Shown: positions 2 through 8,752 of the stretch, in pieces
Layout of the letters: every line of letters starts with the position of its first letter
Numbering within the stretch: position 1 is the first letter of the stretch
Source: Mycobacterium sp.
Lineage (GTDB): Bacteria; Actinomycetota; Actinomycetes; RYN-182
Length of the DNA stretch: 38,118 nucleotides
Assembly (NCBI GenBank): GCA_025965515.1
Contig: JAOPWU010000094.1
Coordinates: forward strand, 1-38,118
Direction: 5' to 3'
Notes under the pieces: model-generated
What the model was told of the DNA's origin: nothing
The model's input: only the letters and a program-made list of their open reading frames with translations
The model's database searches: none
Translations under genes and position numbers: made by a program

Positions 2-472
2 CTGCACCGCGGCGCCGGCGCGGCGGCCGCGCTGGCGGTCCTGGCGGCGTTCGCCGTCGTCGCCACCGCCGTCGAGGCCGGGCGGCTGCCGCAGCTGCCG
101 ACCTGGCACCGGCAGGTCGACGAGGACTGGCTCACCCGGTACCGGGGGTGGGTCTACGGCGTCGGCTTCGGTGCGCAGCTGGGCACCGGCCTCGTCACCA
201 TCGTCACGTCGCCGCTGCTGTACGTGGCCCTCGCGCTGGAACTGCTCAGTGGTTCGGCCCTGGCGGGTGCGGCGCTCGGGCTGGTCTTCGGCGTCGCCCG
301 GGCCGTGCCCGTGCTGGCCATGCGCCCGGTCACCAGCTTCGACCGGCTGCAGGCCGCCCACCGGCGGCTCGCGGACCTCGCCGCGGTGGGCCGCCGGGTC
401 ACTGCCGCCACGCTCGTCGCCGTGGCGGTCGCCGCGGCCGCCCTACTCGTCACCACCGGGGGGTCCCCATGA
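2..472 (+). CDS. Polytopic membrane protein, 3' part only (possible MauF/CcdA-like redox membrane protein)
   Basis: The 5' end lies outside the window; 156 residues are visible. The translation has about four hydrophobic stretches (roughly residues 3-24, 57-75, 77-98 and 135-152 of the visible part), joined by a loop with charged and aromatic residues (WHRQVDEDWLTRYRGWVYG), so it is an integral membrane protein. The stop codon overlaps the next start (ATGA at 469-472), so the two are translationally coupled. Its position just upstream of a MauA-like Cys-rich protein suggests a role in redox supply or disulfide handling, as MauF/MauE or CcdA proteins have in methylamine dehydrogenase clusters. 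That role is inference from context: no Cys pair is visible in this part, and I do not recognise the family with certainty. Confidence 0.55.
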   Translation: MHRGAGAAAALAVLAAFAVVATAVEAGRLPQLPTWHRQVDEDWLTRYRGWVYGVGFGAQLGTGLVTIVTSPLLYVALALELLSGSALAGAALGLVFGVARAVPVLAMRPVTSFDRLQAAHRRLADLAAVGRRVTAATLVAVAVAAAALLVTTGGSP

Positions 473-936
473 CGCTGCGAGCCCACGGCCTGGCCGTGGA
501 CGCCCCGAACGGCTGGGAGATCCGCATCGCGCGCCGCGCCCATGATCCGGAGTCGCCGGGCTCGGTGCCGCGGCCGGTGCTGCACGCCGCGACGATCCCG
601 CTGCCCGCCGACCGCGCCGACTTCGGCGATGGCGTCCTGCAGCGGCTGTCCGCCGGCGACCTGTTCGTCACGCTCTTCGAGTACGAGCCGCAGGCCGCGA
701 CCACCGCGCTGTTCGCGGCCCGGGGGCGCCCGACGCCTACCGCGGCGGACTTCTCCCCGATGGCCATGCAGCCGAGCCTGCCCGGCCTCTCGGGGCGGCA
801 GTGGTTCTTCAACGACGGCGGCCGGGCCTTCAGCCTCTACATCGTTCTGGGCAGCCACGCCCGGCGCGCGGTGCTGGTCAACCGGCTCCACCCCGTCCTG
901 TCCACCCTCACCATCGACCCGAGGGCCGACGCGTGA
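469..936 (+). CDS. Small soluble protein of unknown function in the MauA-like cluster
   Basis: 155 residues, starting at an ATG that overlaps the stop of the membrane gene by 4 nt. There is no signal peptide, no membrane segment and no Cys. It opens with MTLRAHGLAVDAPNGWEIRI, reminiscent of short actinobacterial domains beginning with an amphipathic strand and a 'P.GWE' turn, as in PsbP/LpqN-like folds. No catalytic motif is apparent. It ends 25 nt before the Tat-exported Cys-rich/LGFP gene and is very probably in the same operon. A chaperone or assembly factor for that exported protein is possible but unsupported by any motif. Confidence 0.6.
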   Translation: MTLRAHGLAVDAPNGWEIRIARRAHDPESPGSVPRPVLHAATIPLPADRADFGDGVLQRLSAGDLFVTLFEYEPQAATTALFAARGRPTPTAADFSPMAMQPSLPGLSGRQWFFNDGGRAFSLYIVLGSHARRAVLVNRLHPVLSTLTIDPRADA

Positions 937-961: not shown

Positions 962-2551
962 ATGACCACGCTCGTCGACCGGGTGGCCGGTTTCCTCGAG
1001 AACCGTTCGAACCGGCGCGGCTTCCTCGGCCGGGTCGCCGTGGTCGGGTCCGCGCTCGCCGTCGGGCCCGTCGACTTCCTGCTGAAGCCGGGGACCGCCT
1101 ACGCCAGCGTCTGCGGCAGCGACACGGCCTGCGCGACCGGGTACACGGTCTTCTGCGTGACCGTGAACAACGGCGTGAACCGCTGCCCGCCCGGCAGCCT
1201 CGTCGGCGGCTGGTGGAAGTCCGACGGTGCCGCGTTCTGCTGCGGCAACGCGCGCTACTACATCGACTGCCACAGCTACTGCAGCTGCGGCTGCGGGCCG
1301 GGCACGCAGTTCTGCGGCGAGGGCTGCCGGAACTGCTCCTGCGGGTGCGGGCCCGCCGGCCAGTGCGACCAGCGGCGGGTCTGCTGCAACCAGTTCCGCT
1401 ACGGGCAGTGCAACCAGGACGTGGGGTGCACCGGGCCCGTGTGGTGCCGGGTCGTCACCTGCACCCCGCCCTGGACCATTCCGGCCTGGAAGTGCACGTC
1501 CACCAGCGCGGTGGACCAGCGTACGAACGACCACTCGGCGCCGGGCCTCATCGACTGCAGCGCCATCAACGGCAAGTACTGGGCGCTCGGCGGGCAGGGC
1601 AGCCTGCTGGGGGAGGCCACGACGGGCGAGCTGACGACGCCCGACCGGTTCGGCCGGTACACCCATTACGACAACGGGTCGATCTACTGGACGCCGAACA
1701 CCGGTGCGTGGTCGGTGCTCGGCGCCATCTACGGGCGCTGGGCGGCGCTCGGCTGGGAGGCCGGCCCGCTGGGGTACCCGGTGACGGACGAGGTCGGTAC
1801 GCCCGACCGGGTCGGCCGCTTCAACCACTTCGCCGGCCGGGACGGGTTCGGCGCCTCTATCTACTGGACGCAGGCGACCGGCGCGTGGTCGGTGCACGGC
1901 GCCATCCGGGCCCACTGGGCCGACCTGGGCTGGGAGACGTCGGCGCTGGGGTACCCGGTGACGGACGAGACCTGGACCCCGGACGGTGTCGGCCGGTTCA
2001 ACCACTTCCAGAACGGCTCCATCTACTGGACGCCCGGCACGGGCGCCTGCGCCGTGCAGGGCCTGATCCACCGGCACTGGGCCGACCTGGGCTGGGAGAC
2101 CTCCGCGCTGGGGTACCCGGTGACGGACGAGACCGGGACCCCCGACGGTGTCGGCCGGTTCAACCACTTCCAGAACGGGTCCATCTACTGGACGGGCCCG
2201 ACCGGCGCGCACGCGGTCCTGGGTGCCATCCACACCCACTGGGCGAGCCTCGGGTGGGAGCGCAGCGCGCTGGGCTACCCCGTGACGGACGAGCTGGCGG
2301 CGCCCGGCGGGGTGGGCCGGTACAGCGACTTCCAGCACGGCTCGATCTACTGGTCGTCGAAGACCGGCGCGCACGCCGTCACGGGACCCCTCCGCGACGC
2401 GTGGCTGTCCCGCGGCGGCTCGTCGGGGCAGCTCGGCCTGCCCACCGACAACGCCGCGGCGGCCGGGACGGGGCGCGTCCGGCAGGACTTCCAGCACGGC
2501 TACGCGGTCCTCGACACGGCCACCGGGACGGTGACGATCACGATGACGTGA
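962..2551 (+). CDS. Tat-exported MauA-like (TTQ-type) Cys-rich domain fused to LGFP repeats
   Basis: 529 residues. Residues 1-49 are a Tat signal (SNRRGFLG at 16-23, hydrophobic stretch, then AYA at 47-49). Residues 51-178 hold 23 Cys. Several landmarks match the methylamine dehydrogenase light chain (MauA): a C-x5-C pair (C51, C57); CPPG(S/T) at 75-79 followed by Trp (W84/W85), where MauA has CPPGT...W57; a Cys-Cys step (C141-C142); and W161-C162 followed by C167-T, where MauA has W108-C109...C121-T. W57 and W108 are the two tryptophans cross-linked into tryptophan tryptophylquinone. Residues about 205-515 are five or six LGFP repeats (LGYPVTDE, GRFNHF, GSIYW), a module linked to cell-wall attachment. 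Expected role: an exported quinone-cofactor redox protein fixed to the envelope; substrate unknown. No MauB-type heavy chain is visible in the window. The MauA assignment is by eye. Confidence 0.7.
   Translation: MTTLVDRVAGFLENRSNRRGFLGRVAVVGSALAVGPVDFLLKPGTAYASVCGSDTACATGYTVFCVTVNNGVNRCPPGSLVGGWWKSDGAAFCCGNARYYIDCHSYCSCGCGPGTQFCGEGCRNCSCGCGPAGQCDQRRVCCNQFRYGQCNQDVGCTGPVWCRVVTCTPPWTIPAWKCTSTSAVDQRTNDHSAPGLIDCSAINGKYWALGGQGSLLGEATTGELTTPDRFGRYTHYDNGSIYWTPNTGAWSVLGAIYGRWAALGWEAGPLGYPVTDEVGTPDRVGRFNHFAGRDGFGASIYWTQATGAWSVHGAIRAHWADLGWETSALGYPVTDETWTPDGVGRFNHFQNGSIYWTPGTGACAVQGLIHRHWADLGWETSALGYPVTDETGTPDGVGRFNHFQNGSIYWTGPTGAHAVLGAIHTHWASLGWERSALGYPVTDELAAPGGVGRYSDFQHGSIYWSSKTGAHAVTGPLRDAWLSRGGSSGQLGLPTDNAAAAGTGRVRQDFQHGYAVLDTATGTVTITMT
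1919..2194 (+). repeat. Near-identical tandem LGFP repeat units (162-bp period)
   Basis: About 114 bp at 1919-2032 recur at 2081-2194 with only a few differences. The offset is 162 bp, exactly 54 codons, which is one LGFP unit. The other units in the gene are clearly more diverged, which points to a recent duplication or gene conversion within the gene. Confidence 0.85.
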
Positions 2552-2564
2552 CGCCCGCGGTGGG

Positions 2565-5309
<2,745 letters not shown>

Positions 5310-6169: not shown

Positions 6170-7585
6170 ATGACGGCCACTGTGGACGACGGCGCGCCGG
6201 CGGGGGTCCTCGAACGAGAGGGGACCTACGGGGAGCGGATCGTCGCGGTCGAACCCGGCGGCGCGGAGTTCATCCCCCTCGCGGAACGGCACGGCCGGCC
6301 GCTGCAGCTGTTCTGGACCTGGACGTCCCCGAACTTCGAGTTCGCGACCGTCTACGTCGGGGTCATCGGCGTGGCGATCTTCCAGGAGACCTTCTGGCAG
6401 GCGCTGCTCGCCCTGGTCCTGGGCACGGCGCTCGGCTCGATCACACAGGGCCTGCTGTCGGTCCGGGGCCCCGGCGCCGGTGTCCCGCAGATGGTGCTGT
6501 CGCGGATCTCGTTCGGGCACTGGGGCAACGCGCTCCCGGCCGGGCTCAACGCCCTCACGGCCGGCGTCGGGTGGTTCGCGGTCAACAGCGTCAGTGGCGC
6601 CTTCGCGCTGAACTCCCTGACGCACATGCCCAAGGCGCTGGCGCTGGTGATCATCGTGGTGCTGCAGGTCGGCATCGCGTTCTTCGGCCACAACCTGGTG
6701 CAGAGCTTCGAGAAGTACGCCTTCCCGGTGCTGGGCATCATCTTCGCGGTCGCCTGCATCACGATGCTCGCGAAGTCGCATCCGTCCGCCGCGCACGGCG
6801 GCGGCGGGATCGGTGGCTTCCTGCTGACGATGGGCGCCGCCTTCGGGTACGCCGCCGGCTGGAACCCGTACGCCAGCGACTACACGCGCTACCTGCCGCC
6901 GACCACCAGCCGCAAGGCCGTGGGCCTCTGGTCGGGGCTCGGCGTCCTCCTGTCCTGCGTGCTGCTCGAGGCGGCGGGCGCCGCGTCGGCCACGCTGGTG
7001 AGTGGCAACCAGGACAACCCCGCGACCGCGTTCACCGGCCACCTGCCGACCGCGCTGGCGAACCTCACCCTGCTCGCCATCGCCCTCGGGGCGGTCTCCG
7101 CGAATGTCCTCAACATCTACTCGGGGACCATGTCGTTCTCGACCCTGGCCATCAAGCTGCCGCTCGCGCTGCGCCGCGCGGTGATCGCGCTGGGCTTCGG
7201 CGTCATCGGCTTCATCGTGGCGCTGACGGGCCTGCACGACGCCGGCAGCAAGTACGAGAACTTCCTGCTGGTCATCGCCTACTGGATCGGCCCGTGGCTC
7301 GGCGTCTTCTTCGCCGACCAGCTGCTCCGGCGCGGCGAGGACACCACCGGCCTGCTGTACGACGTGCGCCACCGCAACATCGCGGGGCCGGTGGCCATGC
7401 TCGTCGGGATGGGCCTGTCGATCTGGCTGTTCTCCAACCAGACCGAGTACACCGGCCCCATCGCGAAGCACCACCCCGGCGTCGGTGACATCACCTTCGC
7501 GGTGGGCTTCGTCATCGCGGCCGCCGGTTACGCGGTGCTGTTCCTGCTGGGCCGCCGCCGGGCTGCGAACCGGGTCGCCGCATGA
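6170..7585 (+). CDS. codB: NCS1-family cytosine/purine permease
   Basis: 471 residues with about 12 membrane segments from residue 45 on. Family features include the [18 protein letters not shown] start of helix 1, helix 3 with [21 protein letters not shown], and the [14 protein letters not shown] motif typical of NCS1 cytosine/purine/allantoin symporters. It should import cytosine or related bases by cation symport across the inner membrane. AAGGGACAGGG before the ATG acts as the ribosome site. The stop overlaps the deaminase start (ATGA at 7582-7585), and upp follows, so the substrate is most likely cytosine. Purine transport cannot be excluded by sequence. Confidence 0.9.
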
Positions 7586-8049
7586 GCCTGTCCGACGCGG
7601 ACCGGGAGTTCCTCACCCTCGCGGTCGAGCAGGCCCGGATCGGCCGCGACGAGGGCGGCGTCCCCATCGGGGCCGCGCTCGTCAGCGACGGGGTCGTGCT
7701 CGGCGTGGGCCGCAACCGGCGAGTGCAGGCGGGCAGCGCCATCCGCCACGGCGAGACCGACGCGGTGGAGAACGCCGGTCGGCAGCCCGCCGCGGTCTAC
7801 CGGAACGCCACCATGTACACGACGCTGTCGCCCTGCGACATGTGCACCGGGCTGATCCTGCTGTACGGCATTCCGCGGGTGGTGCTGGGCGAGAACGAGA
7901 CGTTCCGCGGCGCCGAGGACCTGCTGGTGGCGCGCGGCGTCGAGGTGGTGAACGCGCAGGACCCGGAGTGCGTCGGCCTCATGCGCGGGTTCATCGCCGA
8001 GCAGCCGCACCTGTGGAACGAGGACATCGGCGAAGAGGGCCCGGGCTGA
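7582..8049 (+). CDS. Cytosine deaminase of the yeast Fcy1 type (small zinc CDA-fold)
   Basis: 155 residues. Zinc ligands and catalytic Glu are plain: H56-G-E58 and the PCDMC pair C85/C88. Flanking sequence matches yeast Fcy1 as I recall it far more closely than TadA or guanine deaminase: EGGVPIG, GSA...[28 protein letters not shown], and a C-terminal W..EDIGE tail that caps the Fcy1 active site. It therefore should convert cytosine to uracil and ammonia. This is not the amidohydrolase-fold CodA of E. coli. It is translationally coupled on both sides (ATGA with the permease, TGATG with upp), giving import, deamination and uracil salvage in one transcript. Same GC and codon style as its neighbours, so no sign of recent transfer. 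Confidence 0.9.
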
Positions 8050-8684
8050 TGCGGCTCCTGGTGGTGGACCACCCGCTGGTCCGGCAGAAGATCACGCTGC
8101 TGCGGGACGTCGGCACGCGGACGCCGACCTTCCGGGCCCTGACCGACGAGCTGGTCACCCTGCTCGCCTACGAGGCGACCCGGGACCTGCCCGTCCAGCC
8201 GGTGGAGGTGACGACCCCGGTCGCGACCGCGGTGGGCGTGGAGCTTGCGCTCCCGCGCCCGCTGGTGCTGCCGGTGCTGCGCGCCGGGCTCGGGATGCTG
8301 GACGGCATGACCCGGCTGCTGCCGACGGTCGAGGTCGGCTTCGTGGGGCTCGCCCGCGACGAGGAGAGCCTGCAGGCGCACTGGTACGCCGAGCGGATCC
8401 CCGGGGACCTGCAGGGGCGCCCGGTGTTCGTGCTGGACCCGATGCTGGCGACCGGCGGCACGCTGGTGGCCGTCCTCGAGCGTGCCCTCGCCCGGGGTGC
8501 GTCGTCGGTCACGGCGATCACCCTGCTCGCCGCGCCGGAGGGCGTCGCGCGGGTCGAGGCGGCGTTCCCCGACGCGGACGTCACCGTCGTGACGGCGGCC
8601 CTGGACGAGCGGCTCGACGAGAACGGGTACATCGTCCCGGGACTCGGGGACGCGGGGGACCGGCTCTTCGGGGTGGTCGCCTGA
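8049..8684 (+). CDS. upp: Uracil phosphoribosyltransferase
   Basis: 211 residues, the usual family length. The PRPP loop [11 protein letters not shown] (about 133-143) and the uracil-binding C-terminal segment [15 protein letters not shown] are both intact. It makes UMP from uracil and PRPP. The ATG shares a nucleotide with the deaminase stop (TGATG at 8047-8051), so uracil produced by the deaminase is directly salvaged. Start at [10 protein letters not shown] matches family members. Confidence 0.95.
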
Positions 8685-8723: not shown

Positions 8724-8752
8724 GACCTCGCTGGTGTACTTCGGGCGAGGTC
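8724..8752. terminator. Stem-loop between convergent upp and the M42 peptidase gene
   Basis: GACCTCGC (8724-8731) and GCGAGGTC (8745-8752) form a perfect 8-bp stem with a 13-nt loop between two converging genes. There is no U-tract, as is common in actinobacteria; a bidirectional terminator is likely. Confidence 0.55.

Follow-up and report, generated by a model that had tools for sequence, protein, structure and literature searches.

The first-pass annotation of positions 962–2551 (plus strand) in the 38,118-nucleotide stretch of Mycobacterium sp. DNA analysed here (the window) raised the question of whether an actinobacterial Cys-rich protein fused to cell-wall repeats could resemble MauA, the light chain of methylamine dehydrogenase (MADH), and carry a tryptophan tryptophylquinone (TTQ) cofactor made from its own Trp residues. 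We followed this question through the protein itself, its relatives, and the genes that accompany it. The annotation was right on the Mau neighbourhood of this gene and wrong on the cofactor for the family.

An exported cysteine-rich core and its wall modules

The architecture proposed for the 529-residue product, a Tat signal, 23 Cys within residues 51–178, and LGFP repeats, is present as described, with the repeats numbering six. The signal peptide (residues 1–48; positions 962–1105) carries its twin Arg at residues 18–19 within NRRGFL (17–22) and is probably cleaved at AYA (46–48), a site assigned by eye. Tat export is upheld by a TIGR01409 match above the cut-off (23 bits vs 16.7, NCBIfam) and by conservation of the RR motif in 59/62 relatives. 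The LGFP region (positions 1520–2548) comprises six PF08310 stretches (Pfam, E 1.7e-116), and a PDB sequence search relates these repeats to the solved repeats of C. glutamicum PS1 (MytA) (6swz/6sx4, E 1.6e-36). In MytA, the repeats make up a stalk, which interacts with peptidoglycan-arabinogalactan (PMC11299179). Surface anchoring, as first suggested, is the predicted fate of the window protein.

Between the signal and the repeats lies the Cys-rich core (residues 51–178; positions 1112–1495). Its fixed points include C51-x5-C57, CPPGS at 75–79, the W84-W85 pair of a GWW motif (positions 1211–1216), and D102-C103 of a Y-x-D-C motif (positions 1265–1270), the last equated with MauA by motif only. 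W84/W85 and W161-C162 stand where the annotation had placed them, W161 being encoded at positions 1442–1444. Two further Trp residues were noted, W171 (in PPW) and W176. The core found no match in a PDB sequence search.

In one scan of 85k GTDB species representatives, the core had 34 clear relatives, which came from Kineococcus, Frankiales, and Acidimicrobiia, and the core profile was found in 30/397 sampled Actinomycetota genomes, so the Cys-rich region is not a chance feature. Conservation was counted on an alignment of 62 family members. W84, W85, and D102-C103 are each present in all 62, as are 11 Cys residues; a twelfth, C51, is kept in 61/62. This number would fit six disulfides. The total Cys count ranges from 16 to 25, and one large clade does without the middle Cys segment, leaving a core with about 18 Cys. 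W171 is nearly invariant and was lost in only a few members (L087 and L107–L110). In the Cys-rich gene of Kineococcus rubinsiae (L012 7001–7678), we observed a frameshift in mid-core, attributable to sequencing error or decay.

What follows the core is freely swapped between relatives. The C-terminal modules include LGFP, SLH, CWB2 (cell wall binding domain 2), DGGIFAFG-type repeats, FG-GAP-like repeats, and Ig-like domains, several of these labels resting on sequence motifs instead of profile matches. Four divergent members (L107–L110) have no C-terminal module, and wall anchoring is therefore not universal in the family. The notion of a propeller in every C-terminal module, in place of MauB, was rejected because SLH, CWB2, LGFP, and module-less forms occur.

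Comparison of the core with MauA

The core and P. denitrificans MauA (PF02975) share several features: a Tat signal, CPPG followed by Trp, a Y-x-D-C motif, and a similar complement of Cys (12 in MauA vs 11–12 conserved here). These likenesses stop short of detectable sequence homology. The comparison with PF02975 that the annotation had called for gave no match for the 529-residue protein or its genome up to E=10, and no supported match across the 397 Actinomycetota genomes. The family's own core profile likewise gave no match to MauA. Profile–profile comparison produced a local CPPG..W alignment with MauA that 4/200 column-shuffled controls equalled or bettered; for Thermomicrobium sequences the figure was 3/200. 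Two AlphaFold2 models of the core were also compared with known structures. Foldseek listed AADH/MADH light chains first for model 1 (pLDDT 58), at E of at least 2, and returned no MADH match for the better model 2 (pLDDT 67). Since the better model does not repeat the AADH/MADH enrichment, this enrichment was left out of the evidence. The core probably either is related to MauA at a great distance or is its functional analogue, homology being hinted at and not proven. As neither profile comparison nor the structure models show direct homology, we treat the core as working like a MauA-type client and do not count it among MauA family members.

The TTQ proposal does not stand for the family. 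Two of the outcomes that the annotation had named as refuting it came about, the missing PF02975 match and the poor conservation of the second candidate Trp. Both Trp residues are present at the TTQ positions in the window protein itself, but the second is not kept across the family. Conservation of the candidate Trp residues thus holds for W84/W85 and fails for W161, the proposed equivalent of MauA W108: this position is Trp in only 6/62 members, all close to the window protein, and most commonly Val (37/62). MauG makes TTQ. No MauG was found in 17 carrier genomes. MauB was likewise found in 0/17, by a search that recovers Paracoccus MauB at 2e-212, which extends to the carrier genomes the earlier remark that no MauB was in view.

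Mau-type neighbours and an in-frame UGA in mauF

The suspected Mau connection was borne out by the neighbouring genes. When neighbouring ORFs were clustered and searched with profiles, a five-gene cluster emerged in about 60 loci, consisting of the Cys-rich gene, MauE, a MauD-like thioredoxin, a MauF homologue, and a protein of about 155 residues that we call p155. MauE-like and MauD-like proteins lie near every relative with enough flanking sequence, a MauF-like protein near almost all (mauF went undetected in L027, L032, L082, and L094), and p155 occurs in nearly all family loci. Because gene order is rearranged between clades across these loci, the association goes beyond short-range synteny. 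MauE passes its Pfam cut-off (3e-15), and the best NCBIfam match of the CxxC thioredoxin-like protein is MauD, at 9.8e-6 and below the cut-off. Profiles built solely from the actinobacterial sets recover the P. denitrificans proteins at 1.2e-21 (MauF), 3.2e-10 (MauE), and 6.5e-10 (MauD) (Z=1000). According to literature cited in PMC7794033, MauE has been considered to assist disulfide formation in the MADH light chain, and the part played by MauD is described there as unclear.

Relative to the mau cluster of P. denitrificans, with its homologous MauE, MauD, and MauF neighbours, the clusters described here have no MauB, MauG, or amicyanin, and they add wall-module fusions, p155, and a MauF gene with a UGA. 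The MauF homologue is a polytopic membrane protein weakly related to DsbD_2 (PF13386, E 7e-6). CcdA has an SPC-type motif near its start, like the MauF-like protein here. Unlike the CcdA/DsbD carriers, the latter has only one conserved Cys or Sec, and its clear best relation is MauF.

The window shows only part of this cluster. Its first gene is the 3′ part of mauF (positions 2–472, plus strand; DsbD_2 E 2.6e-5, MauF profile 2e-46). The stop codon of mauF overlaps the start of p155 (positions 469–936, plus strand) in ATGA. The p155 protein has no apparent signal peptide and found no match in Pfam, NCBIfam, or PDB. In the same genome, mauE, mauD, and the 5′ end of mauF lie on the minus strand at the end of contig C70 (L048/L057), whose terminal 28 bases are identical at 27/28 positions to the first 28 of the window. 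The window therefore begins inside mauF.

Elsewhere in the window, the convergent neighbour of the Cys-rich gene (positions 2565–5309, minus strand) resembles a ClpC-type ATPase by eye, with an N-terminal CxxC zinc-finger-like segment. Positions 6170–8684 encode, in a row and also judged by eye, cytosine/purine permease-like, nucleoside deaminase-like, and uracil phosphoribosyltransferase-like proteins, which suggests a pyrimidine salvage operon.

The most surprising element of the system, a putative selenocysteine (Sec) in MauF, lies just outside the window. Followed upstream from the apparent ATG, the mauF frame of this genome continues across a UGA (C70 178–180, minus strand) in the motif TWSP-UGA-GESML, and the gene continues in the window. 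P. denitrificans MauF has STWSPCG at the corresponding site, the same motif with Cys. Among the loci read, the codon at the Cys of TWSP-C-G is UGA in 46 and UGC in 9 actinobacterial ones. The selenocysteine machinery follows the codon: SelB exceeded its cut-off in 19/22 genomes with UGA vs 1/8 with UGC (Fisher p 4e-4) and a strong tRNA-Sec match was found in 21/22 vs 1/8 (Fisher p 3e-5), p-values that overstate the case because the genomes are related by phylogeny and kinship was left uncorrected.

The RNA downstream of the codon is consistent with the same reading. Hairpins form in the 45 bases that follow the UGA, and the second of them has an apical loop starting with GG about 33 nt after the UGA, and SECIS-like hairpins of this kind lie directly 3′ of the UGA in the mauF of this genome. 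Measured against synonymous-codon shuffles, hairpin stability gave a mean z of -1.94 for UGA copies vs -0.24 for UGC copies (p 8e-5, overstated for the same reason), although the encoded peptides are alike. Singly, 26/46 UGA copies reach p<0.05, and one hairpin helix has compensatory changes. The mauF hairpin satisfies the published bacterial SECIS model, which specifies a hairpin 16–37 nt after the UGA, G in the first loop positions, and a minimum free energy of -7.5 or below (PMC13188914). The 2026 catalogue that contains this model includes UGA/Cys pairs such as the one seen here; its 119 prokaryotic selenoprotein families include neither MauF nor a CcdA-type family with an SPU motif (PMC13188914). 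NCBIfam likewise gave no match, and we found no description of a Sec-containing MauF or of the core family in the open-access literature. In the genome of the window, selA and selB stand side by side. No tRNA-Sec was found in this draft, including near selAB, which may be a gap in an assembly that is 93% complete.

With UGA in place of the motif Cys codon, a SECIS-like hairpin behind it, and selenocysteine machinery in the same genomes, MauF is very probably a previously unlisted selenoprotein. We consider it highly improbable that the UGA is instead a true stop, with a short upstream ORF and translation of MauF from the ATG four codons later (UGA-G-E-S-M). The in-frame ATG shortly after the UGA and the tRNA-Sec not found in this genome would fit such a reading. 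It is contradicted by the Cys at this residue in Paracoccus MauF and in nine actinobacterial copies, by a frame and protein motif that extend upstream of the UGA, and by a hairpin seen only in UGA copies and accompanied by selB and tRNA-Sec.

Two further known systems come close to this one. Thermomicrobium roseum carries, on its megaplasmid (L037 717–9349), a divergent methylamine-dehydrogenase-like cluster annotated as encoding a methylamine dehydrogenase light chain. Like the actinobacterial loci, it has Tat-type MauA-like proteins (two), MauE, a MauD-like protein, and a MauF homologue (1.9e-12), the last also with an in-frame UGA, at position 8744 (WSP-UGA-GYS). It differs in keeping both TTQ-position Trp residues, in doing without wall modules, and in encoding several paralogous propeller-like proteins missed by PF06433, to one of which its MauE is fused. 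The decRiPPter clusters of Streptomyces (PMC7794033) also place MauE/MauD beside Cys-rich proteins in actinobacteria; they differ in that no MauF or Sec is reported and in being read as short peptide precursors.

Proposed role of the system

Our favoured reading, held with moderate confidence, is that the product of positions 962–2551, rich in disulfides and displayed on the wall, is matured as a client by a Mau-type (MauD/E/F) system and is not a TTQ enzyme. In this proposal, Sec-containing MauF would act as a CcdA/DsbD-like membrane protein that carries electrons across the membrane, and MauD and MauE would draw on these electrons as they form the numerous disulfides of the exported core or proofread them. 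p155 may do its work intracellularly, ahead of export. Once folded, the core would be held on the cell wall by its LGFP or other module. The finished core would be a disulfide-locked surface domain, with its conserved GWW, YxDC, and FRYG residues forming a binding or redox site; this activity is the least certain step of the proposal.

Several other readings were weighed against this one. Possible, if doubtful, is a purely structural surface protein, adhesin or coat-like, that is stapled by disulfides and has no redox or catalytic site. The swappable modules, wall or repeat types of six kinds or more, and the variable number of Cys residues fit such a protein, but the invariant non-Cys residues over 62 sequences (GWW, RY, D, FRYG, R) suggest a specific site, and the stand-alone members have nothing to anchor. 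At the other extreme, the core could bear a different Trp-derived cofactor, for example Trp-Cys or else oxidised W84/W85 paired with W171 or with an invariant Cys, formed without MauG in a wall-bound redox enzyme. The invariance of W84-W85 amid variable flanking sequence, the near-invariance of W171, and a dedicated set of Mau-type helpers that would include a very reactive Sec all lend this some appeal. We nonetheless think it unlikely, as the conserved cluster has no oxidase-type modifying enzyme, some members have lost W171, and structural cores often contain conserved Trp pairs. Less likely again is its most far-reaching form, in which a selenium-dependent Mau-type line builds at W84-W85 a new kind of protein-derived cofactor, independent of MauG, and so defines a hitherto unknown class of wall-anchored surface redox enzymes.

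A TTQ protein that works like MauA, with W84 or W85 cross-linked to W161, now seems very improbable. The Mau helpers in the operon, the likeness of W161-C162 to MauA W108-C109, and the invariant D102 in Y-x-D-C, as in the YRDC of MauA, speak for it, and they are outweighed by the restriction of W161 to close kin of the window protein, the 17 genomes in which neither MauG nor MauB was found, and the null result with PF02975. We give just as little credence to the core as a RiPP-like precursor on which MauE/MauD act as modifying proteins, the reading that decRiPPter offered for the Streptomyces clusters. There, MauE/MauD homologues do adjoin precursors with at least 8 Cys (PMC7794033), but the size of a folded domain, Tat export, and large conserved wall modules are at odds with such a precursor, as is a conserved cluster with no peptidase, transporter, or cyclase genes.

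The reading of a disulfide-rich client matured by MauD, MauE, and MauF bears on more than this one protein. The five-gene system is real, widespread, and apparently undescribed. In a sizeable fraction of the actinobacteria sampled (30/397 genomes), its Mau-type maturation proteins accompany a client other than an amine dehydrogenase, and it adds what appears to be an unlisted selenoprotein family, MauF, which annotation that reads UGA as a stop will truncate. The existence of both UGA and UGC versions, and of both stand-alone and wall-anchored clients, opens the role of MauD, MauE, and MauF, be it in disulfide formation, in proofreading, or in cofactor chemistry, to tests in culturable Kineococcus species.
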